Shown: piece after piece, positions 9,095 through 29,932 of the stretch
How positions within the stretch are numbered: position 1 is the first letter of the stretch
Layout: every line of letters begins with the position of its first letter
Virus record (IMG/VR): IMGVR_UViG_3300044451_000434
Span: 1-64,000 of that record
DNA length: 64,000 bases
Origin: a virus
Strand: one strand, 5' to 3'
Position numbers and translations under genes: made by a program
The notes under the pieces: model-generated
What the model saw: only the letters and a program-made list of their open reading frames with translations
Told to the model about the DNA's origin: nothing
The model's database searches: none

Positions 9095-12000
9095 TTAAGT
9101 AGACAAATCGTCTATGTCTGGTATTTCAGACACCGAAATTACCAATTTAGGTATTCTTGTTGGCAAGCCAATTTCCAAAAGTCCTTTAATAGGTGGATTT
9201 GAGCTTGAGCTAGAACTCGAAGATCCAGATTGGCTACAGCAGTCTTCTGGAATGTCTAGGATATCACTAAGAAATTCACATACAGACAATTGAGAGAACT
9301 CGAAATTCACTATAGAGAAACCAGAGCATGGACCATCATAGGTTGCCAAAGAAACATATGGATTGTCAGTATCTATCCGACTCGATCCAAGTGGCGCAGA
9401 GAGTATTTTAAACATATCAATCACTTTAGAAGTGCGATATATTCTTGTGTAAGAATTATTGGTGCATATTGAAGTCACGCTCAAAAAAGTATCATCGTTG
9501 AGATTTTCAAGCTCTACAATAATCGCTGCTACATCAAGAGTAACACTAGAAGGTATGCATGGCGTCTCATAAGCATAACTGCTAGAAGACGAACTTGAGG
9601 AACTGCTTCTTGAAGATGAAGAACTGCTGCTCGAAGATGAACTTGACGAATTGCTGCTAGAAGATGAGGAATTGCTGTTAAAAGATGAAGAACTACTGCT
9701 TGAAGATGAACTTGAGGAACTGCTGCTTGAAGACGAACTTGAAGAACTCTTGCTAGAACTACTGCTAGAGGAGGACAAATAACTACTAGATGACGAACTA
9801 GATGATGAACTTGAAGACGAAAAATCAGTAGTTATTAGTGGAGGACTAGAGGTGTCTGTCACAAACCAAGCTCCTCCGTCAGCGTCCATATTTATTAAAC
9901 CAACTCCTGTTTCATAAAGTTGTATACTATCTGATGATCTAGTAACGCGCCACACCCATTTGCTAATGTTTTGTCCAGCAACTGCTTGAGCGCCGCTTAC
10001 GATAAAATCCGAATTAAAAGACAGGCGCTGATTAGCCGCAACATACGGCGAGAAGCCTCCAAGACGCTCGTTGATGTCTATTAGTATAGAATTTATTCTT
10101 GAAAAAGTATCTGCCCTCGAATTTTGAGGGAATTCATCTGGCTCCCAAGAATATATATGATCAATTCCAGTTATGCACGCATGACGCAGCAACTCGTCCC
10201 ACATGGAAGAATTCACAAAACCAACTTCTCCACTATCGTCGCCATCCCACGACCTTGGAGCTATCCATGGCCTGATCGGCGAACCGCCACAGCTTCTGTT
10301 GATGGCACGCAGGGTCTGCAGAGCCAACAAAAGAGAATTCCAAGGAGTCCGTCCAAAGGGAGTCGTGGTGGCATTTGACTGGTCCAGGCGAACTAGCCTT
10401 GTGGGGTCATCAGTTGCCACAGAGTATGTATTTGGAAAATACCATTGACCGTAAAGATAGGGAGAAGAAGCATTGCCAGCAAGACCCTGCTGCATGTCAT
10501 AATGCCCGTTGGCGTCATAGGAGTGGTCCCATGGGGCAATAGAATATGCATGGTAGTTTGTCATGCTCAAACCTGGATATTGAGCCTTGCCTATTGGCAT
10601 AAATGCCTCGTAGAGGTTTGCTGCATCAATAGCAGATACACCGCGATTCCAATAGTGATATGCAGGGGTGTTTTGGGGGTGTGGCCCAGAAAGACTGCTT
10701 ATCAATTGTTCCAATTGAGCGTTAAAATCAAAACGACCGCCATCGGTGAACCAGTATTTCCAAGAGGCAACGCCAAACCAAGACTTGGAGAATTCTGGCC
10801 TATTGGCATATGAATTAACCCTGTCTGCATCAAGACTCCAGTTGGTAAATATCCCCCTCATTTCGTAATCAAAAACCAAATGATCGAGTGGAGCACTTTG
10901 GTTCTTCAGGGCTCCTACGATGGTTGTCCAGGCATTCTTTACAGCAGTGACTCCGTTGGAGGCCCATATGGAAGGAACGTTCACTCCACTAGAAATGACA
11001 AATTGATCTGGAGTACCAAGGTTGTCATAGAACATTCTCTTGTTGACGCCAGCTTTATAGAAATAATGCATACGAAGAGATCGCATGCCAGATGGAAGTT
11101 TTTTGAGCAACGACACAACCGCGTTGAACCTATCTGTATTTATGAATGTTGCAGGGGCACTCTGACCACCATCAGTGAAGGTACTTGTGCTAGTGGGTCC
11201 GTACAAGGGAACAATAGGCTTGACATATGTGTACATTGTCAAATCCGCAGACGTTTGATCTATTACATCAGCATCCAAGCTTGCAGACACTGGGCCACGC
11301 CAGGTACCAGCCCAGATTGGGCGCACAATCCGAGTTGGATCTGCAGTCCTGTTTGCAAGCTCTGAAACCATCGACTGAATGTTGTAAGAAGCTACATATT
11401 CGGCCTTGGCAATCGATGAACACGTCACCGTTCCAAGCTCCCAGCATGTCTTTGAGAAAATGGCGCCACCAACAAGTGGACAACCTGCGAAATCAGATCT
11501 CTTCAGATCTCTTTCTATGGCATCAAATATGAATCCATCAATTTTGTGCCTCATGAACGGCTGTATGCAAGATGAATTGAATTGAGATTTTGACATCTTG
11601 CAGTTGTGCGTCGCGTAAGAAGGAATGGTAGGAAAAATAAATACGCCAATATTGGTGACATATATAGGCCTGGGTGTTTTCTTTGATTGGCTGTAGTGAT
11701 GCAGTATGGCGTCTGTTGCCACACCCACCTTGGTAGAAATTTGTTGCCTGCTTATTATGGTTGGGGATGCAGGCGTGCATTCAACAGCAACGAAATCAAC
11801 CGCGTCTAGAAGAGGCCCATAAGCTTCCGATATGCGTGTTGCAACACCCTGCCTTGCCCAAGATGAACTCTGCCTTATATCGACATTGGTTTCTGCTGAG
11901 ACAAACCTCGATGACTCAAAATAGGCAGCCCCGACATTTCCATTTATTGTAAAATTACCAAGCCCACAGATACCAAATTTTACAGATGGATGGATTGTCT

Positions 12001-15000
12001 TGAGTTTGGCAATGGTCTCTAGCAGCAAGCCATTAATTGCCGCCAACTCTCGCAATATTTGATCCCTGCTGCCGAGCGTGTCATTTGGATCAATCATGTC
12101 AATCGGATTTGAAACCCACCTAGAATGGCGATTGAATACATCAGAATCGACATTGTCAGAACGGAAAATGCTCTTCAGGTCTATGATGACATGTGTTATT
12201 TCAGACGCAAAACCAATCGCAGTGTCACTGGCAATATTCGACTTGAGATCATTCACATATCTAATAATTCCTGAGGGGATCGGCATGCCGTTGTCGTCTA
12301 TGTTCCTGTATTGAGATGATGGTGATGAATCTTCTCGTACAAATAGCATTGGTTTTGCACCAAGAGAGTTCGCCCAAGAACGTTTGGCAAGAATGTGATC
12401 CCTCATCAGCTGGTCTTCTGGAGTGAGGGTGTACACTGCCTCACTGTCAGAACAGAATACCTCAGGCGGTAGCGGACTCTCTGAAGAGCAATATGGCACG
12501 ATCCCAGCAAGCGAGGGAAGCATGCCTGCAAGTGTTGAACTGCCATAGCTCCCTCTAAACTCAATACCAGTGACAATCCTGGTGACATCTGTCGGACTAG
12601 AAGGGTTGCCCACCCTGTCCCTCGCGACCACAAATCCTAATGGGCAATACGAAGAAAAACCTGTTAAGCTATTTGGCTCATCGATCACACGCTGCCAAGC
12701 CGATGGGTTCGCAACAACACTTGCGTGCAGATCTTCGAAGATCGGCTTTGCAAGGACTATCTTGGATACATCGGGGTCATTCTCGGATCCGTCACAGTAC
12801 ATTCTTACGATGATCTTGTCATCTTCTTCAGCAGCATTCGCTAGCCAGTCAAACAGACACCTCAACATGTTGATGGAGTTGCAAGAAAGCCCTGGATAGG
12901 GGCACGGATCAAATTGGGACCCCTGTCCTGCTCTGACTATAAATTCAGTGACATCGTCATCTTTAACCCTATCGCGCAACTGCACGTCTATTACCGAACC
13001 AAGATCATATGAACATGGGGTGATCGACACACCTTCGACGGTGCGCACCCCAATCATGTCGTTCATTTCTGAATAACCACCTTCTATGACCATGTCTATA
13101 GGATCAAATTTTCCACGTTCCTTGTTGAGCAGGAACTGTCTTGCACGCACAGGTAGCTGTGTTGATGAGAATTTAAAATTGAACCTTACATACCTTCCCC
13201 ATGTTCTTGGAGTTCCTGCATAGAAATTCAATTTGCCTAGCAATGGCATGTGCTCGAGCGGAATAAGCTGATCAGATCCTGTGTAGGTGGTCTTGTAGAA
13301 GCTGTCAGCTACGATAAACGCTGAAGAACTGCACATGCTGAGTATTGACCTTGCACCCGAAGGAATGTTTTCTAGCAGATGCTTTCGTGTTGAATACTGG
13401 ATCGGGTTCATGTGCTTCGTCATGTCCGTCCAGCCAAGATCTGTAGCTGATGTGATTATCATGTGTTGCGCACTACCGTCTCCAACACACACCTCAAATC
13501 CGTGACATGGAACAGCGAGAGGATTGGGAAACTCGCCACCTGAAGATGGCCCGATTGTCGCCGAGATGGGTGGCTCGCCACCACGGATTTTTATGAGGTT
13601 CCAGAGAAGATTTCTGGAATTCTTCGCTTTGGTTATGGACAATCCAGCCATGAGTGAGGTGTCATAGAACTCATTCTTTAATGTTGCCAGCGGCGGTGGC
13701 ACCAATGCTCCAGGATCAGGGCTGTCGAGGAACTCCTCCTGCATCCATATGACACCACCATTGAACCTATTCAATATTTTAGCAGTTGCTGCTGGAACTG
13801 CAGAACGGGCAAAAGGTATAACCAAAACTCCAATCCCCAATTCATCATAAAGGTCTAGAGAGTCATCCTGCACCACAGAAACAGGCACGCCATTATCAAC
13901 ACATGTGTGGATTGCACCCATGAGTGGCCAATAGTATTGCTGCCACTTGGCGTTTGCGACGCCTCCCTGTATAGAAGCCCCAAAAGCAGCTTCCGGGCTG
14001 TGAACCACTGCCACCCAAGGCACCCTACTTCTCTTGGCTTTAGGCAGGCCACCGTCCTTAAGACTTGAAGCCATGGATGCTAGTCTTCTGATGTATACAG
14101 AGGCGTTATCCGAAGGCAATGAAGTGTCGTTGTTTTCCACCCCCGTTAGGGAATCAGGATTTTCTCCTGAATATCCAGCGCCAGAGAAATACATCGCATC
14201 AAAAATGTTACCGCATGCCCATGTTATGAGCAGTTTGTTCTCTAGGAAACCCCTGATTGCATGATCGCGAACAATCCCCTTCCCGCCCAAGAATGTGAAT
14301 CTACCGCTCGCTGCTTGATAGGCGGAGTCCAAATTGCTTGTGCATGTCACCAAACTCTGCTCTGTGTCCGTTGGAGGTCTGAGCGCATCTGACTCTGAGG
14401 GGCTCCACAGAGTCAGCGGCTGCCACATCAGGGATGGCTTACCATCCCTGCTCCTTGACATAAGCATGTCTGCAATTTGTGCCAACCACATGTCAGGAGG
14501 AGTTGATGGGCTGGTATTGTTGCTTGGCATCCGCAGATCGAGTATCTGCTCCACACCAAGTTCAGACTTGAAACCAGCAGAGTAATATGCAGAGTCATGC
14601 TGATTGGCAAAAATTGAGTAGGAATGACCAGAATGTATGCCGGCTGGAATGATTGCAAAATCGGGATGCCCATAAGACTTCATCGTGTCCGCGATGAAAT
14701 TCATGAATTCTTTTTCCTTCTTCCTCAACCATTCTAAGTATCTTCGGACTTCAGATTTAAAAGTAACAGGGTTGGTCTGGCTTGATTCTATCCAGTTCAC
14801 AGAAGGATTATCAAGAGATAAAAGATCGGTTATATTTGTTGTGTTTTGATTGCTGAGCCAAGTCCACAGTGAGACAAGACCTAAATTATTTGCTTTTTCG
14901 TAAGTGAGGGGGAATGGGAAAATTGATGGATCTGGCTTGGGTATTTGGAATTCTTGGTTGAAATTTTCAAAAAGGCCCTCATACGTTGCCCAACTCACGG

Positions 15001-18000
15001 TGTCTTCAGAAAAGTCTCCCCTAAAAGGATCTATCGGCATGCTATCCCAATACATGCCGCGAACACCAAGCGGATATCCGTCAGATCCAAGAATTGGTTC
15101 GTTAGAAACATCCTTTGCTAGACCTTGCCTTGCAACCTCTTTGCACCAATCAGCCATCAAAGCTCTTGTCGACGGAGACATGATGGACAGGAGAGTCATG
15201 CCAGAATTGCCATGCTCACTTGCAGTGATCAGATTGCCAAATATATCAGTAGCCTTGTGGAAAACCTCTGATATTTTCCATCCACCAGAAGGTGCAGTAA
15301 TTCCGAACCTCGTTAAACTTGTATTTGTGTTGTTTGCCTGAACATCCAACTCTATAGAAGAGAACATCTTGAAGTATGCAATCAGGCGAATTCCATATTT
15401 AATAGAAGCCGCCACATATTCAGCCATTGGGTCCATAGCCATCCCAACCGCTCCCGCCACAGTTCCATCATTTGCGAACAACTTCCACTGATTAAAAGTA
15501 GCACCATCTCTGCTCCAATCCCAATCTGTAGATGGCGTTGAAGCAGGCTTTGGGAACCACATAGGCTCGTCTGAACTCCTCAAAAATACAATAGCAAAAT
15601 CAGGATTCCACTGTGCTGCAGCCCTAACCTGAGCATCTATGTTGAAAGCAGAACTAAAAGCAGCACGAGCGCCAGCCAACTTAGCAGCCGTGGCCGCACC
15701 GCAAGACGGCAAAGAAGACGACTCAAATGTCGAGGACCCAGTGGAGTGCTTGCGCTTATAGAATGAAAGGGATGCGGAAGAAAGATTTGGAGCAGAGCAG
15801 TTGCTCAGCAAACAAACCTCGCAGTCAGAACCGCTTATGGCAGCACCCTTCATGTTTCTGACATTTTGATCATAGAGCAAGACGCAGTTTAATCCGCTCC
15901 ACTGGGTATGAAGGCTGAATCTTGATTCTCTGTACCAAGATGTATCCTTGACACCAGAGGTAGTTGCAGATGCATTTGCATACCCTGCGACCTTGGTTCC
16001 TTCGAGCCTGTAGGTGGTCAAGCCATCTCGTCGGCTTACCACCCCAGTGTCTTCCACCATCTCGAACGTGGGCGGAGTCATGCCCTCCTCATATGGCATG
16101 CTGAACCACATGCCACAAGGACGCTTCGGGTTCGGACGCAATCTAGCGATCTCTTCAGATCCAGACCTGACCGAAACAACGAATTTCTTCAGATTCAGTA
16201 TCCTGTTATTCGGAGGATACTGCTCATTGGGACTTATGTCGGGGACTTCGGTCGGGGTGGGAACAGAAAGTCTGAAGAGCAAATACGCAGGAGATGAGCC
16301 ATCATCTGTCTCCTCTACCTTGACACATGTGATGCATGGCTTCATCTGTGCATCAGTGAGTGGCGGGATGGTGCCATCCACAAGAGATTGAGGCGTGTCG
16401 GAAGAGTCTGTTTCCGCAAAACTAAACTGATATTCGTGTCGGAATGCAATACTCCAACGACGACGTGAGCCAACAGCACGCTCTATATCTCCCAAAACTG
16501 CGTTAACGGTTGTGCTGTTGAATACCGTGTCTTCTATGCCTTCAGCAACCACTGCATATTTGCCTGTAAATATTCTTTCTGCGCTTCCATACCAGAATGT
16601 AAATAGAGGGTGGCCCTGGGCTACTAGCATGGCATGAACCATCTTTTCCCACCACATCCAGCCGTGCACCAGTTCCCTGCTGCGCACGCCCCCTCCATGC
16701 CATCGACTTGGCCAACTCTCGCCTGGCAGTTGCCTGTCTGCCTCATTCCATATGAATCCAACTGGAGAAACATCTGGACGGGCAAAGCCGCCAGGCCACT
16801 CGACCCATGCAAGACAAGTTTGGGATGGATGGCTGTATGCGCACTGCTTGATCGCGTAGATGCCATACTTGAGATCAGCAAATGGCTCCATGGCGCTACG
16901 TGCTGGAGTTGGAGGAGATATGAAGTTGTCAGATTGTACGAGAGCCAGCGCCTTGGTAAACGAACTGAATCCGTTTGCGGTTGGGACATTCTGCCTGGCG
17001 CCGTTACCCACCCATGTCAGTCTAGACCCCGGCAACTGAGTTTGGTTGAAAGTCTCCTCAGGCCCAGACCTGTCATCCGAGTTCGTGCCGCTTGACAATT
17101 TTCCATCTGTTTTCAGCCTCAAGAAACCACCGTAATTACCAGAGCCTCCCATCAAAACAAGCGGCCAAGAACTTTGGTCATCTATTGTTCCCACTTCATA
17201 TTGACTAGAACCATGATAAAAAGTGTTAATCAAACCACTCTGCATATTAGAAACATCAACAAACTGCGTAAAGAGCCAGTACTGACTATAACCGCTGTAG
17301 ATTACATCAGTCGGGATGTCTCCAGCGCATTCAAAAAGAGAATACTTGCCCTGCCAACTAAGTTGATTTGATATGGTACCATCAGAGCCAGGGTTGGCAG
17401 AAATGAGCGGAGTCCCTGGAAGGTATATCCTCTCCGCGAGATTGATCCGCATACCTTGGGTGCTAGACGAAACCAATTTCGACAGGTCTCCCCAAGCATA
17501 TAGGGTTCCATCTGCTTTGAGCGCAACGGTGAATCTTTGGCCTGCGCCAACCCACACACAGTCGGAGGTAGTGGCGTTCTGAAACTGGACGGGCACAACG
17601 CATTCACCGTCGTTATTTTCTCCCCAACAAGCAACAGTTCCATCTCTGCGCAGGGCAACCGCATGGTGGTAACCGCCAGCTACCTGCTTGAATGGGCCTG
17701 ATGGGATGCCGCCATTCGGCAGAGATTCTCCCCATTCGTTCCTGTCCCATGCAAATATAGAACCATCTGGTCTGATTGCATAGTTGTTGTAATATCCGCA
17801 TGATATTGCAGAAACTGAATTTGCAGTGGTTTTTAGGGTCTTTACAGTTGGAGCTGTATTGTCCCCAGGGGGAGCATTTGGATATGGATATTCCCTGCCA
17901 TTTTCTATCCACTTGCTAGTTGATGCTTCAGCAGTTGCGTTAGGCCGGCCAGACCCCATCCTGACATATTCATTGGTCTGTAGGCCGCTGCCAGTTACTG

Positions 18001-21000
18001 CGTAGAAGAAATTACCACCCCATGTCTCTATGTTCCCGTCATCAGTGAGAAGAAGATTGTGGAATCTGCCAGCAGAGATGTCAATATACGACTGACCGGA
18101 TGTCCCGAATATGGAGTTAGGTATCAAAGATCCTGATGAATTAGTATATCCTTGACTGTTCCCCGTGCTTATATTCTCTGCAGAACTTAACCAAGACCCA
18201 TCTAGGCTGACGTTGACACCAGAAGCAACAGTTGATCTGGCAAACTGGTAGTCATTTGGAGCACCTGTGTCCGTTTCCCAGTTGACTATGCCTGCCCAAG
18301 AAGTTGCGCTGGGAGCAGGATAAGATGTAGATGGAGTGTCAAAATTGCTGTTGGGAAGATCGCCGCCACGGAATGGACATCCCAAAGAGTTGAATCTGAA
18401 AAGCCTATACTTTCTGTTCTGGGGACTAATTTGACAAGAATTGCCCTGCAGCACAGGGTCGCCAGAAGCATCAAGAACGCAACTGTCCTGATCATCTGTG
18501 ATGCATGGGAAATACCCTAGATATGAGGATGCGTCTTGCTTGTACTCGAAGTCGATGTATGGAATATGATTTGTAATGAGCGTCGCATCTCCTGCGGTGG
18601 GCCTAGGTATACTTCCCACCTTGGTCCAAACTGTATTGGGATCGCTCAGTTGGGCAGATGAATTGTCCCCCCAGGCAACTACAGATCCGTTGTCTAGCAG
18701 CGCCAAGAAATGAGATCCACCTGCAGCGATTTTCTTTACTGTACGACCAAGTGAAGCCAACTGTTCTGTGAAGGCTTCGGCAGCTTCTGAAGCAGTAACA
18801 TCACAATGCTCTAGAGCAGGTCCACCCCATGCCACAACATTTCCATCTGTTGTCAAACCGACAACAACACCATATCCAACTGCTATCTGCCTGTATTTGA
18901 GAGAAGCAAGTTCAGAAGGTGGCAGCAGATCATATCCTGCAAAATTATCTTGCGTGGTAACCCATCTTAAAGACCCGTCTTTCAGGGTGTAGAATATTAT
19001 TGGCGAATGACCTACAGATATCGATGTGTAGTTTTCTCCATACCTCTCAGGGAACTGACCAACCTTAAAAGTGGTGTCTGCATCCAATCTTGAAACACAC
19101 TGGTAGCCATAATATGGAAGGCTACTTTCTGGACGCATGCACCCTTCTGCCTTAAGAGTAACCTCTATGGCTTTGGTTATGAGCGCAAAAACTTCATTTT
19201 CTAGTATTGAAACCACAAGCTGGAGACGACTCAGCATGGGATGCTCCACCGAGCCATCCCATCGAGTCTCAACCAGAGAACGCAACCCTTCAGATATGCT
19301 CCTAGAGCCAGTCAAACTAGACCCGTATCTGCCATTACCTGCTTCTAGTATAGATATCACACCAGTAAAGCCGTTCCAAGATAGGTTGCTCCATTTTGGA
19401 TTGGTGGTCTGTCTAATCAACCATTCATCCATCAGTCCATAGCCACGCACCACTTGTATCCAATCCCAAAGTGTGCCAGTCTTGTCTCCTGCGAACTCAA
19501 CTATGAAATCATAAATGATGTAGTCAAGAAGGTTGCCATCCCTAGATAGGTCAAATGGCAACCTGTATGGATCAGAGCCGATGCTAGAGGCATCAACATT
19601 CGCAAATAGCCTTTGACCAATTGCATTCACATTTGGAACGTTAGGTGGCTGCTTCGCATACCAGCAGAGTTTCCTGATCATGTACTGTATGAATCCACCA
19701 CCGCTTGCGGTCGGCTGCCCACTAGCATCGAGAGTCCCGCAATAGAACTTGATCAGATTATCGTGGAAAAGTGATGGCAGACGAACTGTTCTGCTTGATC
19801 CCCCAAAATCCGTGTATGTATACTCCTGCAGATCTGGCTGAAACCATACTGGATATCTCCAAGAGTGAGGGTCAGATGGCTCAACGCGAGAACGATAGTC
19901 TCCCTTCCACGAGTGGCAGAAAGGAATATCAACGGGATAATATCCCCTTTGGCCAGATGGTATTGGCTTGGGCTGGGGGTTGGATGCATCAAACCCGAAA
20001 TAACCCCTGTCGCACAAAAGCCCAGGCATGATTATGTCGTTCATGTTGCCACCATCGATGGCATATCTGACAGCATCGTAAAAAACACTATGTGTGATTG
20101 TCGCAGACCATGGAAGCTGAGAAGCCGGTGGCGTGCTGCTGTGACTGTTGATGAGCCACCTGTTCACTGCATAATTTTGAGGACGATTGCCATCTCCAGC
20201 AAAAGCTGGATCAGTAACCTTGAATGAATAATCACCAGCAGAAGCATTAACACATATGCTGTCTATTTGTGCATCTTTCTGGCAAGTAAATACTTCGCTA
20301 ACATCTTCAACAATATGACTTTCTCCTGAAAATTTCAATCTCTTGTATTTGAGAGTAAGATTGTCAAAATCGTTGTTAGGAGGGGCTGTGGGGTGCGGAC
20401 TCCCCCATCTGTCGATGACCACAAACGGCCTCACCCTCCTGCTGATGGGGCTTCTCCCAGATGGCTTCTGGTATGGCCAGCCCCTCAGCCAAAGGTAGCC
20501 TCCCGAGGATGTCTCAGATTGGTTCCACCCAGTGTCCCACATATTGAAACCATTGAAGTCATCAAGGGACATGAAATCAACTGCAGGCCAAGGGTCGAAA
20601 TCACAGTTCAACCTGCATCCCGCTGCGGCAAACAAGGGATCTAGTAGGTTTAGTCTGTGGGCTACCGCAAGAAAGGGCTTGCCAACACTGAAAGAGGTTG
20701 CAGTTGCTCCAGTGCTCCAGTCGCCCTCGGTCTTGAAGATGCGTAAAAAGTCGGTTTCATGATCAAATGAGGCGGCAGAGAAAAGATCTTCATATGCTGA
20801 TATTGGATTGATTCCATAATCAGAAGACAAAACCTGGAACAAAACAGACAGCACCTGCCCAAGATCCCCACGATCAGACTTTACAAAATGGTTTGGGTCG
20901 TGCATAACAAGTGCATCAGTTTGACATCCGGTCGTTCCCGATGCGATCAATAATACAGCTGTTTTTGCTTCTTCAAAAGTTGTGACGGTTTGCTGTGAAA

Positions 21001-21373
21001 GCACACAACTTGCACCCAACACAGATCTTGCCATAAAATCGAAATCAACTCTTGCAAAATTGTCCGAATCAACCAATACCACACCAGCGCCAGCATTAAA
21101 AACCCCAGCAATTACAGCGGAGCCAGTCTCAACCGACAAACCAACACCAGTATTAGAAGAGTATAACCCAATTGTTTTTGCATCAGGAGAGACTCCAGAA
21201 GACAGATTTCCCGATAGGGGCTGTGCCTTTGATGGGTCAGAAGAAAAACCCTCGAGGTAAGCAACAGGAGCGTAAGAAGATGAGGTTGCGCCCAAGGATC
21301 CCTTGGCAATCTTCACATATCCGTCTTGGACGAGCCTGTTGAGCAGATCAAACTGATCGTAGTCAGACTTCAT
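9095..21373 (-). CDS. 4092-residue tail/adhesin giant with RCC1-like propeller and glycosidase-like barrels
   Basis: The ATG overlaps the upstream stop as ATGA, and the gene ends at TAA. Visible modules: an unrecognised N-terminal region (1-770); RCC1-type repeats at about 780-1480 (units such as HFLALLDNGSVVAWGDN and HAVALRRDGTVACWGEN); a barrel-like region near 1900-2440 with glycosidase-like strands (YGIRLIAYF, GMYWDSMP); then a segment near 2450-2530 that resembles the trimerisation domain of GH42-type beta-galactosidases (VPVSVVQDDSLDLYDEL, IGVLVIP). Two more barrel-like stretches lie near 3000-3370 and 3400-3830 (HLVFDYEM). Poly-serine tracts lie at about 3849-3932 and 4050-4060. No signal peptide is seen. 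I infer a host-surface-binding and possibly polysaccharide-cleaving tail protein. Catalytic residues cannot be assigned by eye, so enzymatic activity is tentative. Confidence 0.9.
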   Translation of the reverse strand: MKSDYDQFDLLNRLVQDGYVKIAKGSLGATSSSYAPVAYLEGFSSDPSKAQPLSGNLSSGVSPDAKTIGLYSSNTGVGLSVETGSAVIAGVFNAGAGVVLVDSDNFARVDFDFMARSVLGASCVLSQQTVTTFEEAKTAVLLIASGTTGCQTDALVMHDPNHFVKSDRGDLGQVLSVLFQVLSSDYGINPISAYEDLFSAASFDHETDFLRIFKTEGDWSTGATATSFSVGKPFLAVAHRLNLLDPLFAAAGCRLNCDFDPWPAVDFMSLDDFNGFNMWDTGWNQSETSSGGYLWLRGWPYQKPSGRSPISRRVRPFVVIDRWGSPHPTAPPNNDFDNLTLKYKRLKFSGESHIVEDVSEVFTCQKDAQIDSICVNASAGDYSFKVTDPAFAGDGNRPQNYAVNRWLINSHSSTPPASQLPWSATITHSVFYDAVRYAIDGGNMNDIIMPGLLCDRGYFGFDASNPQPKPIPSGQRGYYPVDIPFCHSWKGDYRSRVEPSDPHSWRYPVWFQPDLQEYTYTDFGGSSRTVRLPSLFHDNLIKFYCGTLDASGQPTASGGGFIQYMIRKLCWYAKQPPNVPNVNAIGQRLFANVDASSIGSDPYRLPFDLSRDGNLLDYIIYDFIVEFAGDKTGTLWDWIQVVRGYGLMDEWLIRQTTNPKWSNLSWNGFTGVISILEAGNGRYGSSLTGSRSISEGLRSLVETRWDGSVEHPMLSRLQLVVSILENEVFALITKAIEVTLKAEGCMRPESSLPYYGYQCVSRLDADTTFKVGQFPERYGENYTSISVGHSPIIFYTLKDGSLRWVTTQDNFAGYDLLPPSELASLKYRQIAVGYGVVVGLTTDGNVVAWGGPALEHCDVTASEAAEAFTEQLASLGRTVKKIAAGGSHFLALLDNGSVVAWGDNSSAQLSDPNTVWTKVGSIPRPTAGDATLITNHIPYIDFEYKQDASSYLGYFPCITDDQDSCVLDASGDPVLQGNSCQISPQNRKYRLFRFNSLGCPFRGGDLPNSNFDTPSTSYPAPSATSWAGIVNWETDTGAPNDYQFARSTVASGVNVSLDGSWLSSAENISTGNSQGYTNSSGSLIPNSIFGTSGQSYIDISAGRFHNLLLTDDGNIETWGGNFFYAVTGSGLQTNEYVRMGSGRPNATAEASTSKWIENGREYPYPNAPPGDNTAPTVKTLKTTANSVSAISCGYYNNYAIRPDGSIFAWDRNEWGESLPNGGIPSGPFKQVAGGYHHAVALRRDGTVACWGENNDGECVVPVQFQNATTSDCVWVGAGQRFTVALKADGTLYAWGDLSKLVSSSTQGMRINLAERIYLPGTPLISANPGSDGTISNQLSWQGKYSLFECAGDIPTDVIYSGYSQYWLFTQFVDVSNMQSGLINTFYHGSSQYEVGTIDDQSSWPLVLMGGSGNYGGFLRLKTDGKLSSGTNSDDRSGPEETFNQTQLPGSRLTWVGNGARQNVPTANGFSSFTKALALVQSDNFISPPTPARSAMEPFADLKYGIYAIKQCAYSHPSQTCLAWVEWPGGFARPDVSPVGFIWNEADRQLPGESWPSRWHGGGVRSRELVHGWMWWEKMVHAMLVAQGHPLFTFWYGSAERIFTGKYAVVAEGIEDTVFNSTTVNAVLGDIERAVGSRRRWSIAFRHEYQFSFAETDSSDTPQSLVDGTIPPLTDAQMKPCITCVKVEETDDGSSPAYLLFRLSVPTPTEVPDISPNEQYPPNNRILNLKKFVVSVRSGSEEIARLRPNPKRPCGMWFSMPYEEGMTPPTFEMVEDTGVVSRRDGLTTYRLEGTKVAGYANASATTSGVKDTSWYRESRFSLHTQWSGLNCVLLYDQNVRNMKGAAISGSDCEVCLLSNCSAPNLSSASLSFYKRKHSTGSSTFESSSLPSCGAATAAKLAGARAAFSSAFNIDAQVRAAAQWNPDFAIVFLRSSDEPMWFPKPASTPSTDWDWSRDGATFNQWKLFANDGTVAGAVGMAMDPMAEYVAASIKYGIRLIAYFKMFSSIELDVQANNTNTSLTRFGITAPSGGWKISEVFHKATDIFGNLITASEHGNSGMTLLSIMSPSTRALMADWCKEVARQGLAKDVSNEPILGSDGYPLGVRGMYWDSMPIDPFRGDFSEDTVSWATYEGLFENFNQEFQIPKPDPSIFPFPLTYEKANNLGLVSLWTWLSNQNTTNITDLLSLDNPSVNWIESSQTNPVTFKSEVRRYLEWLRKKEKEFMNFIADTMKSYGHPDFAIIPAGIHSGHSYSIFANQHDSAYYSAGFKSELGVEQILDLRMPSNNTSPSTPPDMWLAQIADMLMSRSRDGKPSLMWQPLTLWSPSESDALRPPTDTEQSLVTCTSNLDSAYQAASGRFTFLGGKGIVRDHAIRGFLENKLLITWACGNIFDAMYFSGAGYSGENPDSLTGVENNDTSLPSDNASVYIRRLASMASSLKDGGLPKAKRSRVPWVAVVHSPEAAFGASIQGGVANAKWQQYYWPLMGAIHTCVDNGVPVSVVQDDSLDLYDELGIGVLVIPFARSAVPAATAKILNRFNGGVIWMQEEFLDSPDPGALVPPPLATLKNEFYDTSLMAGLSITKAKNSRNLLWNLIKIRGGEPPISATIGPSSGGEFPNPLAVPCHGFEVCVGDGSAQHMIITSATDLGWTDMTKHMNPIQYSTRKHLLENIPSGARSILSMCSSSAFIVADSFYKTTYTGSDQLIPLEHMPLLGKLNFYAGTPRTWGRYVRFNFKFSSTQLPVRARQFLLNKERGKFDPIDMVIEGGYSEMNDMIGVRTVEGVSITPCSYDLGSVIDVQLRDRVKDDDVTEFIVRAGQGSQFDPCPYPGLSCNSINMLRCLFDWLANAAEEDDKIIVRMYCDGSENDPDVSKIVLAKPIFEDLHASVVANPSAWQRVIDEPNSLTGFSSYCPLGFVVARDRVGNPSSPTDVTRIVTGIEFRGSYGSSTLAGMLPSLAGIVPYCSSESPLPPEVFCSDSEAVYTLTPEDQLMRDHILAKRSWANSLGAKPMLFVREDSSPSSQYRNIDDNGMPIPSGIIRYVNDLKSNIASDTAIGFASEITHVIIDLKSIFRSDNVDSDVFNRHSRWVSNPIDMIDPNDTLGSRDQILRELAAINGLLLETIAKLKTIHPSVKFGICGLGNFTINGNVGAAYFESSRFVSAETNVDIRQSSSWARQGVATRISEAYGPLLDAVDFVAVECTPASPTIISRQQISTKVGVATDAILHHYSQSKKTPRPIYVTNIGVFIFPTIPSYATHNCKMSKSQFNSSCIQPFMRHKIDGFIFDAIERDLKRSDFAGCPLVGGAIFSKTCWELGTVTCSSIAKAEYVASYNIQSMVSELANRTADPTRIVRPIWAGTWRGPVSASLDADVIDQTSADLTMYTYVKPIVPLYGPTSTSTFTDGGQSAPATFINTDRFNAVVSLLKKLPSGMRSLRMHYFYKAGVNKRMFYDNLGTPDQFVISSGVNVPSIWASNGVTAVKNAWTTIVGALKNQSAPLDHLVFDYEMRGIFTNWSLDADRVNSYANRPEFSKSWFGVASWKYWFTDGGRFDFNAQLEQLISSLSGPHPQNTPAYHYWNRGVSAIDAANLYEAFMPIGKAQYPGLSMTNYHAYSIAPWDHSYDANGHYDMQQGLAGNASSPYLYGQWYFPNTYSVATDDPTRLVRLDQSNATTTPFGRTPWNSLLLALQTLRAINRSCGGSPIRPWIAPRSWDGDDSGEVGFVNSSMWDELLRHACITGIDHIYSWEPDEFPQNSRADTFSRINSILIDINERLGGFSPYVAANQRLSFNSDFIVSGAQAVAGQNISKWVWRVTRSSDSIQLYETGVGLINMDADGGAWFVTDTSSPPLITTDFSSSSSSSSSSSSSYLSSSSSSSSKSSSSSSSSSSSSSSSSSSSSSSFNSNSSSSSSNSSSSSSSSSSSSSRSSSSSSSSSSYAYETPCIPSSVTLDVAAIIVELENLNDDTFLSVTSICTNNSYTRIYRTSKVIDMFKILSAPLGSSRIDTDNPYVSLATYDGPCSGFSIVNFEFSQLSVCEFLSDILDIPEDCCSQSGSSSSSSSSNPPIKGLLEIGLPTRIPKLVISVSEIPDIDDLST
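9195..9221 (-). repeat. Short C-terminal poly-serine tract of the 4092-residue protein
   Basis: This encodes eight to nine serines at about residues 4050-4060, between two small C-terminal segments, using mixed serine codons. Confidence 0.8.
9579..9830 (-). repeat. Long poly-serine linker of the 4092-residue protein
   Basis: This encodes about 84 residues, nearly all serine, broken by a few Asn, Tyr, Leu, Lys, Phe and Arg residues, at about 3849-3932. Serine codons are freely mixed, with imperfect local duplication of nucleotide blocks. It separates the last barrel-like domain from a small C-terminal domain. Confidence 0.92.
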
Positions 21374-23085
21374 CGCACTATATCAACCGTTCCTGCTGAG
21401 GAAACAGACCAATCAGTAGACGCTGAAGCCATATGTCTAGCGTTTGTGTCGGCGAGCGCCCTGAGGTGGCGGGTTAGAAGATGTGTCCATTCCACCTTCT
21501 CCCATCTCAAGATGGCAACAATTTGCCTTGTAATGAGTGATGAACTTGAGGCAACATAATTTGCATTTTTATTATTATACCGACCAGATGATACGGACAT
21601 GCCCTGCACAGGATTTTTTACAGGCAAATCTGGATAAATAAATCTCAAAGACGACCATGCTGCTTGATCGTCTACACAAGAAGATATTGTACCTTTCCAG
21701 TCAATCATGCGAGATCCGTCCAAGTCCGACCAAAATATGTCATGCATGCAGTTGCCAAGTTCTGGATCTGCAAGTTCGTGGTTCCATGCAAAACCAACTG
21801 CATTTTCGTGACCAAGCTCATCTCTTTTTTCGTCAATCGGCCTAGAAATCATCCTTCTCCCCAAAAATTGATACTCAAGAGACCTTCTTGCGGTAAATCT
21901 GTCGGAATTTGAGCTTGAGGTGGCTGCAGATATAATTTCTTCCATATTGTCGCCAATAACAAAATCTAAGACCTTGCCGCCGCCGTCATAAATTCCGCGT
22001 AGAAGAGGCCTTATATATTCGTCTATAAAATATTCAGGGATTGGCAGCATACCATACCATGAGCTACCCATCAAGGCGTTCGGCAAAACTGAAGAAACGC
22101 AAAGTATGATAGAATCTTGCTGACCTATGGTTTTTGCAAAACGCGCCAAAGAGAGACCAGACTCCCTAGCTGCCAATTTGCAAGAATCAGACAATATCTG
22201 ATATTGAAAATTTGTTTTTGCATCTTTTGCGCCAACTGCCCTGAATGTGGAACCGTGAGGAAGTTTTGTTGAATTTATCAAATCTACCCAACCATGTGGC
22301 ATCCCAGAACTCATATGAACAAAAAAATTGCCTCGAGAATTTGAATTATACAAATATGAGCCCTTGGAGGAGGTGAAAGCTTCCACAAATGGCATCTTCA
22401 AGCCAAATCCAGAAATCCCGCAAGCAATCGCAAAGTTTTTTTGCAATTCAGATCTGAAGTTGCTGTTGCCAATACTGAAAGCAGCATCCCTGATCACCCC
22501 ATATGACATCGTTGAATCAGAACTTATGAAATCAGCACATGCCGGAGGTATCACGCTAGTTTTTTTCCTTGTGGCAGCCAAAGCCAAATCGCAATTTCTT
22601 CTTGCATCCATAACCAAAGATTCAATAACAGAAAAATACATCTCATCAGATGTCAAAGAAATATTTGATATGCCTTCAGTTCTCCTGAAGCCACGAACCA
22701 CCTCATGCGCCCTGCGCAGGTGTGCGCCAGACTCAGAAGTCATACCTTTGATCATTTCTTGAGCATTGAACCTTCTGCCGGTTATAATTTTTAGATATTC
22801 GGAATTTGGCTGCAAAAAAAGATTTTCACCTTCACAATCACGAAATTGATTGTTAGACAATTTGTCATTCAAGCTTGGCAAGCCGTCACCATTACCATAA
22901 GATCCAGCAAATCCATCAATGCACGGCGTGACGGTACACCCAACAGAGGATAGCGACTCCACAGATGTGCTACCTACAACACCATACGGCACACCTGATG
23001 CACTGCAGAAACATCCGACGAAATTTTCGGCCTGCTCTGAATCGCACCTGAATCCAAGCCTGTTAGATGGCATCAAAACCCTCAT
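21370..23085 (-). CDS. Unrecognised 571-residue structural-run protein
   Basis: The start is ATG, overlapping the upstream stop by four bases, and the stop overlaps the start of the 4092-residue gene in the same way, so translation is probably coupled on both sides. I do not recognise the family. The sequence alternates hydrophobic strands and charged helices (for example VVRGFRRTEGI and VIESLVMDARRNCDLALAA near 130-170). It carries many cysteines and has a C-terminal helix-rich stretch near 520-550 (ILRWEKVEWTHLLTRHLRAL). There is no signal peptide or membrane segment. Its place between a 776-residue barrel-like protein and the glycosidase-like giant suggests a component of the same structure or a split-off module of it. 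No function is assigned. Confidence 0.8.
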   Translation of the reverse strand: MRVLMPSNRLGFRCDSEQAENFVGCFCSASGVPYGVVGSTSVESLSSVGCTVTPCIDGFAGSYGNGDGLPSLNDKLSNNQFRDCEGENLFLQPNSEYLKIITGRRFNAQEMIKGMTSESGAHLRRAHEVVRGFRRTEGISNISLTSDEMYFSVIESLVMDARRNCDLALAATRKKTSVIPPACADFISSDSTMSYGVIRDAAFSIGNSNFRSELQKNFAIACGISGFGLKMPFVEAFTSSKGSYLYNSNSRGNFFVHMSSGMPHGWVDLINSTKLPHGSTFRAVGAKDAKTNFQYQILSDSCKLAARESGLSLARFAKTIGQQDSIILCVSSVLPNALMGSSWYGMLPIPEYFIDEYIRPLLRGIYDGGGKVLDFVIGDNMEEIISAATSSSNSDRFTARRSLEYQFLGRRMISRPIDEKRDELGHENAVGFAWNHELADPELGNCMHDIFWSDLDGSRMIDWKGTISSCVDDQAAWSSLRFIYPDLPVKNPVQGMSVSSGRYNNKNANYVASSSSLITRQIVAILRWEKVEWTHLLTRHLRALADTNARHMASASTDWSVSSAGTVDIVR

Positions 23086-25412
23086 TGGTAATATTCCTCA
23101 TCATCAGATTTGGAAGTTCGCAGGTAAACAGTTGGATTGAAATTACCAGCATAAACTCCCCACCACGGGGCCTGGTCTATAGGTTGAGCAGTCCCGCCAG
23201 AATATCCTTGTATGGCTACAGGGTTGGGATCGCCATCATCCACAACAATTTCAGAGTCATCCACCCCAAAACCAAACCTTTCTCTTTCTCCGCCAAAACG
23301 CCATGAGCAGTCACCGACGGGAGAAGAGAGATACCAATCTGAAAGCTGATCTCCATCAGATGAGCATTTGGTCAAAACACGAACCCCTTCTGACAGAGGA
23401 GGCACATCCTTATGTCCCTGTCCGAATATACCGACATGTGGAATACCAATACGTGGAGATGGAGTAAGTGATGGTGAACTAAAATTATTGTACTGCACCA
23501 TGCTGAATAGCGGAGATGCATCTTTATGATCGCATATATTTTGAGAAGATTTCGGAGTTAATCCTGGAGAAGAAACAGAACATCCAACAAAATGATGAAC
23601 CAACATTTTGCCTACAGATTCGTTAAGAGCAAAAGCAGCAGCAGCTCGGGCTACATCCATGTACCACTTTGCAAACGCTCTGTTACCAACAAAATCAAAT
23701 GCAGATCTGTTCTGAAATACATTATTTGCGGTGAATGTTTTGTCTAACTGACCACCTGGCAAGTAAGATTTTACTGAGTAGATTCTTGAAAATTCCGAAC
23801 ATGCTAACAGCGTTTTCTCTGATCCAAAAATATCTGCAATCACTTCCCGCTCCCACCTGCTGTCAAAAATATGGCTTTCCCAATTTCCATAATATGTTAT
23901 GCCGTCCACGACTTTTGGCTGAGATACTGCACTGTTGATATCTACGGGCAATTTTGAATTGAAAACAACACACCAAGGAGATTGGACGCCTACGCCTATA
24001 AAAACAGCCCACCTCTGGCGCACAGTCTCAAACCTGTATATGAATTTTGACATCCAAGATCTGCAAGATAAAATCCCATTATAGTTGAACAAGCTATCTC
24101 TAGGATTCTGTATAGATTTGCCAGATGGAGGCAAAGACAAGGCATCTCCAGCATGTTCGGTGAGCCTGCACTCCTCGTAATGTGTATCTACGACTTGAGA
24201 AGAACCGCCACGCCCCCAATCTGAAAAAACTAACACGGAAGCAAACTCGCCCAAGTAATCACGCTGGGGATGACTACTCCACTCTTCCGCAAGAATGCCT
24301 ATAGCAGCATCAGCAGCTTTGCATGCCCCATAAGAGCCATATGCAGATGGCGAAGAAATCTTGGAAGACAAGATTCCAGCACTAGTAAATGGCATCAATG
24401 GATCTTCGTAGTACGGCTGTCTTGCTGCATAATACGAAGGAAGATTACAGACACCACCTGCTTCATTCGCGCTACTTGAGCAGTCTATGTTTGCAGGTGC
24501 GACTATACTCGGAATAGACTTCGCGATACTGCTAAAAAATGAATGACAAGAACCAACGCCAACATGAGATCTGCGACCGGCTAGAGATGGGACAATAAAT
24601 TTCTTAGATTTTGCGCCCAAATCTTTAACACGACGCTCTTCGTCAAGATAGGCATCTACTATATATTTCCAATCAGACGAAAGAGAAGAAACAGATGGTT
24701 TCCAGCATGGAACATATCCCCAATTTACACAAGAGCGAATCACTCTTTCTGACAAGTCTTCCGATTCTATCGTCACAACTGATTCAACTGAAGCCCTCAC
24801 ATTAGCACTCGCCCATCCACTTACTGGTAAAGTGCTGTCAGAAACAGCCACTGGTAGGTCGTACCACTCAGGCAAATCACACGCTCCGCTAGTGGACACA
24901 TACGGATTGCCAGAATTGTCTCGCCACAAGTAAAACAACATATGTCGTTCAAGTATTTGCTTTAAAAGGCGATTTGTGCAACTGTCATACGGATCGTATG
25001 GATCAGAGGGCTTTGGCATGTTGTCCGACACTATAGCGGTGATTCCGTTGTTTACAAGCTTAGGTAACTCATAATCCATAAAACTGCCACTAAGCAAACT
25101 AGTTTGAGCGGCCATATGGTAGCCTAAATCATAGCGCACACCGACAGTAACGGGATGACTGCAAGACTGAACAAAAGAATACACCAAACTAAGCCAAGAT
25201 GTGCAAATCTCGTTTTGCACTTCATAATAGGGATCGGATGCAATTCCAATTGCGTTGCCGCATGGTGATACCACAAACCTTCTCACACCCCACCCATACG
25301 CTTTTTTTAAAGAAGAAATAAAAAAATCTTCGGACATATACAGTCTAGAAAAATCTACAATAAATCTCCTATCTATTGCATAATGCGCATAAGTAGTTGC
25401 AATTTCAGTCAT
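23082..25412 (-). CDS. 776-residue protein with barrel-like N-terminus, possible hydrolase-like module
   Basis: Both ends overlap neighbouring genes by four bases (ATGA). The N-terminal 200 residues read like an alternating strand/helix barrel: FIVDFSRLY, then WGVRRFVVSP, then VTVGVRYDLG. This is the rhythm of glycosidase-like TIM barrels, but no catalytic signature is clear. Near residue 452 it has the pattern W-M-x-K-F-x-x-R-F followed by a P-W strand. Near 600 it has NRAFAKWY. Both recur in the 1333-residue protein at 45393-49394, which points to paralogous modules. The C-terminus is acidic. No signal peptide is seen. I infer a tail-associated protein of the same family of modules. Enzymatic activity is not demonstrated. 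Confidence 0.82.
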   Translation of the reverse strand: MTEIATTYAHYAIDRRFIVDFSRLYMSEDFFISSLKKAYGWGVRRFVVSPCGNAIGIASDPYYEVQNEICTSWLSLVYSFVQSCSHPVTVGVRYDLGYHMAAQTSLLSGSFMDYELPKLVNNGITAIVSDNMPKPSDPYDPYDSCTNRLLKQILERHMLFYLWRDNSGNPYVSTSGACDLPEWYDLPVAVSDSTLPVSGWASANVRASVESVVTIESEDLSERVIRSCVNWGYVPCWKPSVSSLSSDWKYIVDAYLDEERRVKDLGAKSKKFIVPSLAGRRSHVGVGSCHSFFSSIAKSIPSIVAPANIDCSSSANEAGGVCNLPSYYAARQPYYEDPLMPFTSAGILSSKISSPSAYGSYGACKAADAAIGILAEEWSSHPQRDYLGEFASVLVFSDWGRGGSSQVVDTHYEECRLTEHAGDALSLPPSGKSIQNPRDSLFNYNGILSCRSWMSKFIYRFETVRQRWAVFIGVGVQSPWCVVFNSKLPVDINSAVSQPKVVDGITYYGNWESHIFDSRWEREVIADIFGSEKTLLACSEFSRIYSVKSYLPGGQLDKTFTANNVFQNRSAFDFVGNRAFAKWYMDVARAAAAFALNESVGKMLVHHFVGCSVSSPGLTPKSSQNICDHKDASPLFSMVQYNNFSSPSLTPSPRIGIPHVGIFGQGHKDVPPLSEGVRVLTKCSSDGDQLSDWYLSSPVGDCSWRFGGERERFGFGVDDSEIVVDDGDPNPVAIQGYSGGTAQPIDQAPWWGVYAGNFNPTVYLRTSKSDDEEYYQ

Positions 25413-28400
25413 GATAATGGAACTCCAGAAACAATCCTGTTTAATCTGTTTTCATCTATATACTTCCACATGTTGAATCCAACAACAGCGATCCTACCAC
25501 CAACTTCTATCAAATGATGCACGCAATCTATTCCAGTCGCCTGAGGCGTTTCTGCCTCAAAACTTGTTTGCGAAAATTCTATATTATTGTCAAAAGTATA
25601 CTTTACAACGCATGTATAACCATTTGCGAATCCGCAAATCATGTAATCATCTCGCAAAGAACCGTTTTGAGAAATTGACCTGAACACCAATATAGAATTG
25701 CAAGCAACTCCAGACATAGAAACTCCATCAGGAGATTCGGGTATTTCTAAAAGTCTTGGTGGATTATTAGAGTTACTAGAGGCACCAACAGCCAACATTT
25801 TATCATAAACCACACCACTTTTTCCTCCATAAACCAAAAACTCTTCCTCGGAGTGGAGGCCTTGATATGTACGATGGCCTCTGAATTTTACAAGAACATA
25901 AGGTGTAGTAAGAAGTGAATCTCGTGATTTTGCAAATCTTAAACCGTCTAGAGACCAGGCAAAATTTGATCCTGAAGAAATCACAGTAGGCGTGCCATCG
26001 AATATATGGTTTATTTTTTCGAGCTGATTGTCTTCATTAAAATCTAAACCTCCACGACGAACAAATGAAATTGAAACATTTGTTTTGGAGTATATGATAT
26101 TTGATGTTGCCACAATGTATGTTTGTCCGTTTTTTCCGCCGGCGACAATCAATCCGACAACACCTTCGAGGGGCACAACTCGACTAGACATCTCAAATTG
26201 ATCATATTCAAGTATTTTGCTTGGGCTATAGGCAACAATTAGGTTGCCGTAAATAGCCAACTTGAAAGCGAATCCGTGATCAAGCCAGCCTGGTGGAGCG
26301 GATGTCATATGACCAGAAGATGCATCAACGAACAAAACTCCAACATCGGTAGAAAATGCGATCAAATTGTGGTTTATCAAATATACTGCAGAAAGAACAA
26401 AAGAAGGCGATTTAGAAAGGCCATACGACCACCTCACGGCTGTATGACCAACAGTAGATATTTTAGCGTCCATCCAAGACATATCTGCTGCATCATGCAG
26501 TGATGTTTTTTCTGTGCCCCTCGTGGGATCAACGCCTGTTTCTATTTTAATTGATGCTGCATTATGAAGCATGTTTATTCGCATAGCTTCTGCCATCTTT
26601 AATGTAAGTCCTGAATTACTGCCTTCAAGACTATCTTCTATAACCCTGTGAGTAACCTCTCCAGAATCATTCCATCTCTTTGCCAAAACTACGCCCTCAA
26701 CCTTATCTCCCTTGCCAACTCTAGAGCCATCTATGAAACGCATTTGACCCAAGGTCGGCAACGCCTGCCCAACCACAACTGCCCCAGCTTGCTCAAAATC
26801 TATGGGCAAAGAATCTCCGTGCCCACCTCCAAAAATAGATGTTTCAGTCAATATTCCAAATTCTGAATCTATTGTGGATTGGCTATTTGAAGCTAGATAT
26901 GCTTCTCTGTCAAAATAGTCGGGACACTGAGAGATATCAAAAGGCGGGTTGCAATTAACTCCATAAATTGAGCTAGAACTAGAAGAACTAGAAATAGAAG
27001 AACTAGAACTTGAAGAAGATGAAGAAGACGAAGAGTAGGATGAATCTAAATCTACAAAAAAAGCGCTCGTGTGAATAATATCTGTATCTGATATGTTTTT
27101 GTCAGGATTACTGTTTTGTGTATTAGTGATTTGCCAAGATAAATCACTTAATATTATCTCTAGAACTCTTTTCATGTTAGGGGTCAAGAGAGAAACACCA
27201 GTACTTATGGTAGAAGTTATTGCTCTGTCATCAAAACTACATATGGAATTACCGTCAAACGCAGGCGGCGTGCAAGAAAAAAATCCATTAGAATTTATAG
27301 TTAATCCGTAAGTGGTTCCGCCCCACAAAGCCGCACCCATAAAAATCGTGCCCTCGCTGTGTTTATGAAGAAAAAGACTTCCAGAATCGCCAGCTGCCAC
27401 GCAGTGTTGCATGTCTGTAAGTTGAACCCCCGACGGCATGGCTGCCCAAGGGGAATTTACAGAATTAGCCTGAGTGATCTGACCAGAACTGGTTAATCTC
27501 ATAGCTGAAACAGTAAACCAAGAATTATTTACAAAAGCTAGAGCGCTATTGGTAGGGAAATGAATGTTTGGATATTGAGTGAAGCCAAGCCGTATTGGAT
27601 TTATTTCATTAGGAACTGGATTTTTAAATACCTGAACAACTGCATCGTGAAATTGATTCCAAGTAATTGCCGGAATATCTGGATATCTTTGACTTACAGT
27701 ATTTCCATTATTGTTCTCGTACCATTCAGGATATCTATTCAATACCATGACGCCGTTGCCAAGAGTAGTGTATCTGCAACAATCAGTAGATCCCTGCTCT
27801 GTGTTAGTTCTCTTGATGATAGTAAATCTCGTGCTGTCAGTGCATGCATACATGGTGCTTGTGGTCGGAGGGTAATGCTCGCACATGAGCAGATGCTGTC
27901 TAGTAATTAGTACGGCGATCCTTGACCCCATACCATTTCTGTGACCCCTAGGTGTTTCTGTCCTTCTCGCATACACCAAACCAGTGTAGTCCATAGACAG
28001 CGGACTGAAATTAGATCCAGACATACACGCCAAATTAATTTGCGATGGGGTGAATCCATCAGACTCATAATTAAGCAAATCATGTCTTTCTGTATCATAG
28101 TTTGGCTCATCTATAGATTTGCCGAAACGCGGAGAGCCGTCGTTAAAATTTATGAAATCTCCAATAATTTCTGAATAAACATCTGGATTTAACAAGAGTC
28201 GTAGAACATCTCCTTGTTCTATGTGGTCATTTATATCTATTGGTAAAGAACCGAATGTCAAATAAACAGTGTCGCCCAAAACTGAAGAGACCATTGCCAA
28301 AGATCCAACACGCCTACCGGCACCACCCTCTCTAAATGTAAAAATCTCACAAACATCTGTTCTAGAAAATTTTATTGCATCAGCAACTTTGAGACTGACT

Positions 28401-28426
28401 ATGAGGTTGGTGCCAGTGTAATACAT
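25409..28426 (-). CDS. 1005-residue protein: trypsin-like domain, poly-serine linker, propeller-like C-terminus
   Basis: ATG start, one base after the upstream TAA. The stop overlaps the next start by four bases. Residues of about 160-390 resemble a chymotrypsin-fold serine protease: the strand AVLITRQHLLMCEHY places a histidine at 184 where the family has its catalytic histidine, and AAGDSGSLFLH gives the nucleophile motif with S348. The expected aspartate position, about 40 residues after the histidine, reads GNGVMVLN with N224, so the triad may be incomplete. A poly-serine linker follows at about 462-485. Residues of about 620-1005 look like a beta-propeller (VYLINHNLIAFSTDVGVLFVD, IYGNLIVAYSPSKILEYD). 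Possible roles are a structural protease fold, self-processing, or degradation of host surface protein. No signal peptide is seen. Confidence 0.87.
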   Translation of the reverse strand: MYYTGTNLIVSLKVADAIKFSRTDVCEIFTFREGGAGRRVGSLAMVSSVLGDTVYLTFGSLPIDINDHIEQGDVLRLLLNPDVYSEIIGDFINFNDGSPRFGKSIDEPNYDTERHDLLNYESDGFTPSQINLACMSGSNFSPLSMDYTGLVYARRTETPRGHRNGMGSRIAVLITRQHLLMCEHYPPTTSTMYACTDSTRFTIIKRTNTEQGSTDCCRYTTLGNGVMVLNRYPEWYENNNGNTVSQRYPDIPAITWNQFHDAVVQVFKNPVPNEINPIRLGFTQYPNIHFPTNSALAFVNNSWFTVSAMRLTSSGQITQANSVNSPWAAMPSGVQLTDMQHCVAAGDSGSLFLHKHSEGTIFMGAALWGGTTYGLTINSNGFFSCTPPAFDGNSICSFDDRAITSTISTGVSLLTPNMKRVLEIILSDLSWQITNTQNSNPDKNISDTDIIHTSAFFVDLDSSYSSSSSSSSSSSSSISSSSSSSSIYGVNCNPPFDISQCPDYFDREAYLASNSQSTIDSEFGILTETSIFGGGHGDSLPIDFEQAGAVVVGQALPTLGQMRFIDGSRVGKGDKVEGVVLAKRWNDSGEVTHRVIEDSLEGSNSGLTLKMAEAMRINMLHNAASIKIETGVDPTRGTEKTSLHDAADMSWMDAKISTVGHTAVRWSYGLSKSPSFVLSAVYLINHNLIAFSTDVGVLFVDASSGHMTSAPPGWLDHGFAFKLAIYGNLIVAYSPSKILEYDQFEMSSRVVPLEGVVGLIVAGGKNGQTYIVATSNIIYSKTNVSISFVRRGGLDFNEDNQLEKINHIFDGTPTVISSGSNFAWSLDGLRFAKSRDSLLTTPYVLVKFRGHRTYQGLHSEEEFLVYGGKSGVVYDKMLAVGASSNSNNPPRLLEIPESPDGVSMSGVACNSILVFRSISQNGSLRDDYMICGFANGYTCVVKYTFDNNIEFSQTSFEAETPQATGIDCVHHLIEVGGRIAVVGFNMWKYIDENRLNRIVSGVPLS
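26972..27044 (-). repeat. Poly-serine linker of the trypsin-like protein
   Basis: This encodes about 24 residues of almost pure serine, broken by one isoleucine, at about 462-485. It joins the trypsin-like half to the propeller-like half. Serine codons are mixed. Confidence 0.9.
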
Positions 28427-28427
28427 T

Positions 28428-29930: not shown

Positions 29931-29932
29931 AT

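Follow-up and report, generated by a model that had tools for sequence, protein, structure and literature searches.

A 4092-residue protein with glycosidase-like modules in an exchangeable slot of a phage tail block

The window analysed here, the first 64 kb of the 164,107-base virus record IMGVR_UViG_3300044451_000434, encodes on its minus strand a giant protein of 4092 residues, hereinafter designated P0001. P0001 lies within a conserved tail block, in a slot with exchangeable contents, and sequence homology places its residues 3398-3841 in a secreted bacterial family with an invariant D-x-E motif (DxE family). Because its position, size and modules fit such a role, we interpret P0001 as a multi-domain adsorption protein of a large tailed phage, either a tail-fibre protein or one attached to the baseplate, in which glycosidase-like modules would trim host glycans (probability roughly 0.55). 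Specifically, P0001 appears to combine an RCC1 propeller, a putative barrel of GHL6, GH151 or GH42 type with a trimerisation-like domain (residues about 1883-2545) and the C-terminal DxE module, and thus to contain one or two glycosidase-like modules.

The C-terminal module and its secreted bacterial relatives

The strongest evidence concerns the C-terminal module, which lies outside the interval in which the initial annotation had placed a glycosidase-like barrel. A six-frame-type genome search with residues 2946-3835 retrieved matching proteins in nine genomes. The top matches, for residues 3468-3817, have per-genome expectation values (E) of 5.6e-16 (30% identity), 2.5e-14 and 4.6e-14, and a separate match to L245 covers residues 3344-3403 (E 6.8e-4). 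A family profile built without P0001 retrieves P0001 at E 2.4e-29, the second-best phage open reading frame (ORF) reaching 0.65, and residues 3465-3844 align to profile positions 100-451. The family members (L238-L244, L246 and L247) come from genomes of the phylum of an Armatimonadetes metagenome-assembled genome (MAG) that also carries a relative of the phage head protein (see below). These genomes were chosen for access, and homologues found in them are uninformative on the host.

The bacterial relatives are mostly free-standing proteins of 450-500 residues, and four of them have starts that, judged by eye, resemble signal peptides. Compared with them, the P0001 copy has an insertion at about residues 3540-3573. 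P0001 is only ~25% identical to the family, yet it retains all five of the acids (D3456, D3497, D3502, E3504 and E3727) that are invariant in the ten sequences of alignment A4; a more distant group (L256-L259 and L263) retains DWE. In glycoside hydrolase families GH18 and GH56, the catalytic residues form a D-x-E motif at a strand end. The conserved acids of P0001 are thus in the C-terminal module, and not in the module named by the initial annotation. That annotation had also pointed to further barrel-like stretches near residues 3000-3830; DxE-family homology bears this out for about 3400-3840, while no identity was found for 2960-3330. Collection searches, which pick up close relatives only, detected no DxE-family member in other phages.

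Residues 3330-3830 were also considered as a GH56 domain, the segment LVFDYEMRGIF resembling the hyaluronidase DWE. Comparison with the GH56-like domains of related phages described below was not significant (hhalign P 0.016), and the region is assigned to the DxE family instead.

The trimerisation-like domain and the putative barrel before it

The motifs from which a barrel and a GH42-type trimerisation domain had been proposed are real and correctly placed. YGIRLIAYF starts at residue 1993, GMYWDSMP at 2106, WPLMGAIHTC... at 2482, LYDELGIGVLVIP at 2508 and NGGVIWM at 2538, and together they span window positions 15397 to 13742.

When 291 genomes of a single phylum were searched in six frames with residues 1883-2720, the only match was L167, with 38% identity to P0001 residues 2450-2525; its E of 9e-4 applies to one genome and corresponds to ~0.26 expected over 291, so that the match alone is not significant. 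L167 is a 676-residue protein with a GHL6 match (E 5e-11), a weak alpha-L-fucosidase match and a Glyco_hydro_42M domain at residues 375-464, with which the P0001 match coincides. A profile limited to this 42M domain, built from 30 GHL6/42M proteins (L167 and relatives), scores 7.2 bits on P0001, compared with a maximum of 4.0 among 1000 shuffles. The hhalign comparison gives a score of 29.8 (P 4.7e-4, 90 columns), and the best scores of control segments from other phage proteins are 25.5 (n=700) and 19.9 (n=150). In a plain hmmsearch with the trimerisation profile, two of the 2101 phage ORFs score better than P0001, whose E is about 3. We regard residues about 2427-2545 as a probable, though not proven, trimerisation-like domain. 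The earlier proposal of such a domain is therefore modestly backed, as a domain of GHL6/GH151 type. Its assignment to GH42 does not hold: P0001 and its pieces have no GH42 match in Pfam at E up to 10, and PF08532, the GH42 trimerisation profile, has none in the whole record, while control genomes do match.

Other searches around this domain added no homologues. Residues 1692-2658 gave nothing usable against GenBank phages, IMG/VR, bacterial genomes and the PDB; residues 1883-2720 had no match in 380 genomes of a second phylum; and residues 1492-2924 had none in 50 related phage records, among which those of the closest relatives (G001 and G005) stop short of the slot, so that their lack of a match is uninformative.

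For the preceding residues 1883-2450, the order of motifs is as expected for a GHL6-like barrel. Specifically, YGIRLIAYF would be a beta-3-like strand, followed by VRGMYWD as the counterpart of the GHL6 motif DGfffD. By motif only, the candidate beta-4 acid is D2110 (GMYWDSMP), and the candidate beta-6 acid is E2275 or D2279 (GVEQILDL). Even at E up to 10, PF14871 (GHL6) does not match P0001 or any of its pieces, and no homologues of residues 1883-2450 were found in the searches made. We treat the (beta/alpha) barrel at this position as putative.

Residues 1883-2545 may instead be unrelated to GHL6, GH151 and GH42 and show a generic alpha/beta (Rossmann-like) pattern, leaving only the C-terminal module glycosidase-like. 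We hold this alternative, which overlaps with the other readings, to be tentative but worth serious attention, since the barrel half does not rise above chance, the rank in the plain hmmsearch is just third and the L167 match has the expectation given above. Against it, the L167 match falls precisely in the 42M domain of a protein of GHL6-plus-42M layout, the hhalign score exceeds those of about 850 real phage segments, and the expected order is present, with the D2110 strand upstream and the Rossmann-like domain after it.

The exchangeable slot of the tail block

The record, which may itself be fragmentary, has genes for terminase, portal, minor tail and major head proteins, together with a block of giant genes that all lie on the minus strand. 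In IMG/VR, 144 relatives of the major head protein are found, on contigs of up to 548 kb, on which basis we assign the phage to a group of large phages that is widespread. One head-protein relative (L166, 58% identity) lies on a 1.36-Mb contig of the Armatimonadetes MAG; this may reflect a prophage or point to the host, and we take it as a hint only.

Four related phages (G021, G022, G026 and G030) have the same two flanking proteins as P0001 and differing proteins between them. In G021, G022 and G026, homologues of the downstream flanking protein have E of 1.1e-90 to 6.7e-79, and 10 viral loci encode homologues of it; L130:1745-6274 is a homologue of the upstream one (E 1.9e-44). The slot of the present phage consists of six genes, P0001 included. 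The slot proteins of relatives are L100:15525-18812 (1096 residues), L132:114-3725 (1204 residues), L130:6217-14577 (2787 residues, with PKD repeats) and L107/L147 (1469 residues). The 1005-residue protein of the present slot has its C-terminal part in common with the single slot protein of relatives, where this part is likewise C-terminal (hhalign P 2e-4). The slot proteins tested against GenBank phages gave no match. P0001 is thus encoded at a variable tail-block locus between conserved genes, the setting of a tail depolymerase or receptor-binding protein. The initial annotation had read P0001 as a depolymerase built into a giant adhesin. Of that reading, the tail-adsorption context and the presence of a glycosidase-like C-terminal module find support; the GH42 identity does not.

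The RCC1 repeats are the only Pfam families seen in P0001, and 50 of 181 genomes have bacterial RCC1 matches to this region. The N-terminal and C-terminal pieces of P0001 have no matches in IMG/VR. We see no signal peptide at the N terminus. The bacterial proteins related to the C-terminal module are secreted in free form, which raises the alternative that P0001 is a glycan hydrolase produced late in infection, secreted or acting at the lysis stage, and not part of the virion. This is highly improbable for a protein of such size that carries an RCC1 propeller and a serine linker, starts without an evident signal peptide and is encoded in the tail block with conserved giant proteins on either side.

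Pfam GH56 (hyaluronidase) matches are found in the slot proteins of G021 (E 8e-9) and G022 (E 1e-14), and one GH56-like slot protein gives a weak alignment to human hyaluronidases (E 0.0014). The hyaluronidase D-W-E reads D-Y-R in L100 (G021) and D-Y-S in L132 (G022), in which the catalytic glutamate is absent. Therefore, glycosidase-like modules recur in the slot, some of them apparently without the catalytic residue. This precedent for loss at the same locus, along with a 1883-2450 barrel too diverged for recognition, is what favours the view that the barrels of P0001 are catalytically dead or mainly bind sugar, their glycosidase folds having been co-opted as lectins that recognise the host. 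We consider this unlikely, in that the C-terminal module keeps all five family-invariant acids despite its low identity to the family.

The coordinates of P0001, its modules and its neighbours are listed in Table 1.

Table 1. P0001, its modules and the flanking genes in the 64-kb window
Feature	Window position	Strand	Basis or remark
P0001, giant adsorption/tail protein (putative)	9095..21373	(-)	4092-residue ORF; ATG overlaps the stop of the upstream 571-residue gene
RCC1-repeat beta-propeller, residues about 817-1300	17474..18925	(-)	Pfam RCC1_2 E 6.5e-39, WD40_RLD 9.6e-37
Putative GHL6/GH151-like (beta/alpha) barrel, residues 1883-2450	14024..15727	(-)	Motif order only; unconfirmed
Probable trimerisation/Rossmann-like domain, residues 2427-2545	13739..14095	(-)	Resembles the 42M domain of GHL6 proteins
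C-terminal glycosidase-like module, residues 3398-3841	9851..11182	(-)	Homology to a secreted bacterial family absent from Pfam
DHLVFDYE, residues 3497-3504, putative catalytic DxE at strand end	10862..10885	(-)	Kept in 10/10 aligned sequences
Serine-rich linker, residues about 3852-3940, then small C-terminal domain	9554..9820	(-)	Sequence
Conserved giant protein downstream of slot, at least 3018 residues	2..9058	(-)	Homologues in G021, G022, G026; runs off contig
Five other slot genes (571, 776, 1005, 500 and 272 residues)	21370..30751	(-)	ORFs between conserved flanks
Conserved tail-block protein upstream of slot, 1777 residues	30830..36163	(-)	Homologues in G021, G022, G026, G030

Several neighbouring proteins have features of their own. 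In the slot, the 1005-residue protein (25409-28426, minus strand) has a trypsin-like N-terminal pattern (TRQHLLMC ... AAGDSGSLF), a serine linker and a conserved C-terminal part, and the 776-residue protein has a weak match. The downstream flanking protein contains VDQSGSMSW, a pattern like that of von Willebrand A, and a tandem GDGG repeat around 2860-2990. Another giant tail-block protein (52080-60062, minus strand; 2660 residues) has an RCC1 match at residues about 1785-1809, and a group 1 glycosyltransferase gene (60065-61123, minus strand) lies inside the tail block and is conserved in relatives (35 matches). The G001 relative (L088:15781-19998) of a 1333-residue protein (45393-49394, minus strand) has about 540 extra residues between two close-matching parts. 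Elsewhere, the portal protein (L002:17520-19730, minus strand) has an endonuclease-like C-terminal stretch (phrog_559, residues 586-688, E 4e-5), and a gene near the head genes (L002:5680-6462, minus strand) encodes a subtilisin-like serine protease pattern (DTGAPTHRD, HGTSVSGI, GSSFANAFVAG).

Proposed role and comparison with known systems

As a glycan-trimming adsorption protein, P0001 would be displayed on the tail and bind glycans of the host surface. The glycosidase-like modules would then hydrolyse or trim the bound glycans, which would let the tail get to its final receptor. A trimerisation domain of GH42 type would fit a trimeric fibre. The barrel fold, enzymatic activity, substrate, trimeric state and virion location in this scheme are inferred.

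Several points weigh against this scheme. The glycosidase nature of the DxE family is deduced from its acids and its secretion. The family has no Pfam entry, and a PDB search with A4 reached chance level only (E 0.2), with no solved relative. No glycosidase family matches P0001, whole or in pieces, in Pfam at E up to 10. For the barrel, the score of the GHL6 profile on P0001 is equalled by 9 of 1000 shuffles with a close set of sequences and by 140 of 1000 with a broad set. AlphaFold predictions from single sequences of two P0001 regions had a predicted local distance difference test score (pLDDT) of 32 each, and the models were discarded.

Most characterised phage depolymerases are beta-helix tailspikes. 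Our results suggest that this phage trims the sugar coat of its host with parts unlike these. More speculatively, the huge phages of this group might share a swappable tail slot stocked with glycosidase modules other than beta-helices (GH56-like, DxE family and possibly a GH151-like barrel with trimerisation domain). P0001 might then be a fibre with several enzymes that cleave different linkages within a single host glycan, its enzyme-type trimerisation domain doubling as the trimerisation element of the fibre; we think this extension rather doubtful. If P0001 and its slot prove to be what the main reading takes them for, large uncultured phages of a widespread group draw glycan-cutting parts from secreted bacterial glycosidase-like families, one of them unlisted in Pfam. 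The slot would be a locus where annotators find further unknown glycosidases by position alone, and enzymologists could assay a defined family in which five acids are invariant.

The combination of GHL6 with a trimerisation-like domain is the layout of the GH151 alpha-L-fucosidases Mfuc3 (PMC4723247) and ALfuk2 (PMC10154630). In ALfuk2, the barrel comprises residues 1-336 and the Rossmann domain residues 341-558, with the nucleophile D154 at beta-4 and the acid/base E235 at beta-6 (PMC10154630). P0001 has a stretch of similar length, about 700 residues, in which a probable Rossmann-like domain follows the putative barrel, and D2110, at the putative beta-4 end, would match D154 by position only. 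Unlike the GHL6/GH151 proteins, the barrel half of P0001 is without significant similarity and offers only candidates for the beta-6 acid, and the stretch is embedded in a giant phage protein. GH42 beta-galactosidases have the same barrel-then-trimerisation layout, as initially proposed, but neither their trimerisation profile in the record nor their family in P0001 is found.

The C-terminal module shares all invariant acids with the secreted DxE family, but in the phage it is built into a giant protein. The GH56-like slot proteins L100 and L132 resemble P0001 in occupying the same genomic slot with glycosidase-like modules; P0001, however, has no PF01630 match, and its C-terminal module keeps the D-x-E glutamate that they lack. 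The idea of a glycosidase carried on the virion to ease infection is shared with phage virion-associated glycoside hydrolases. Among these, Gp255 is a separate GH25 protein, while the modules of P0001, which has no GH25 match, are parts of one giant multi-domain protein.

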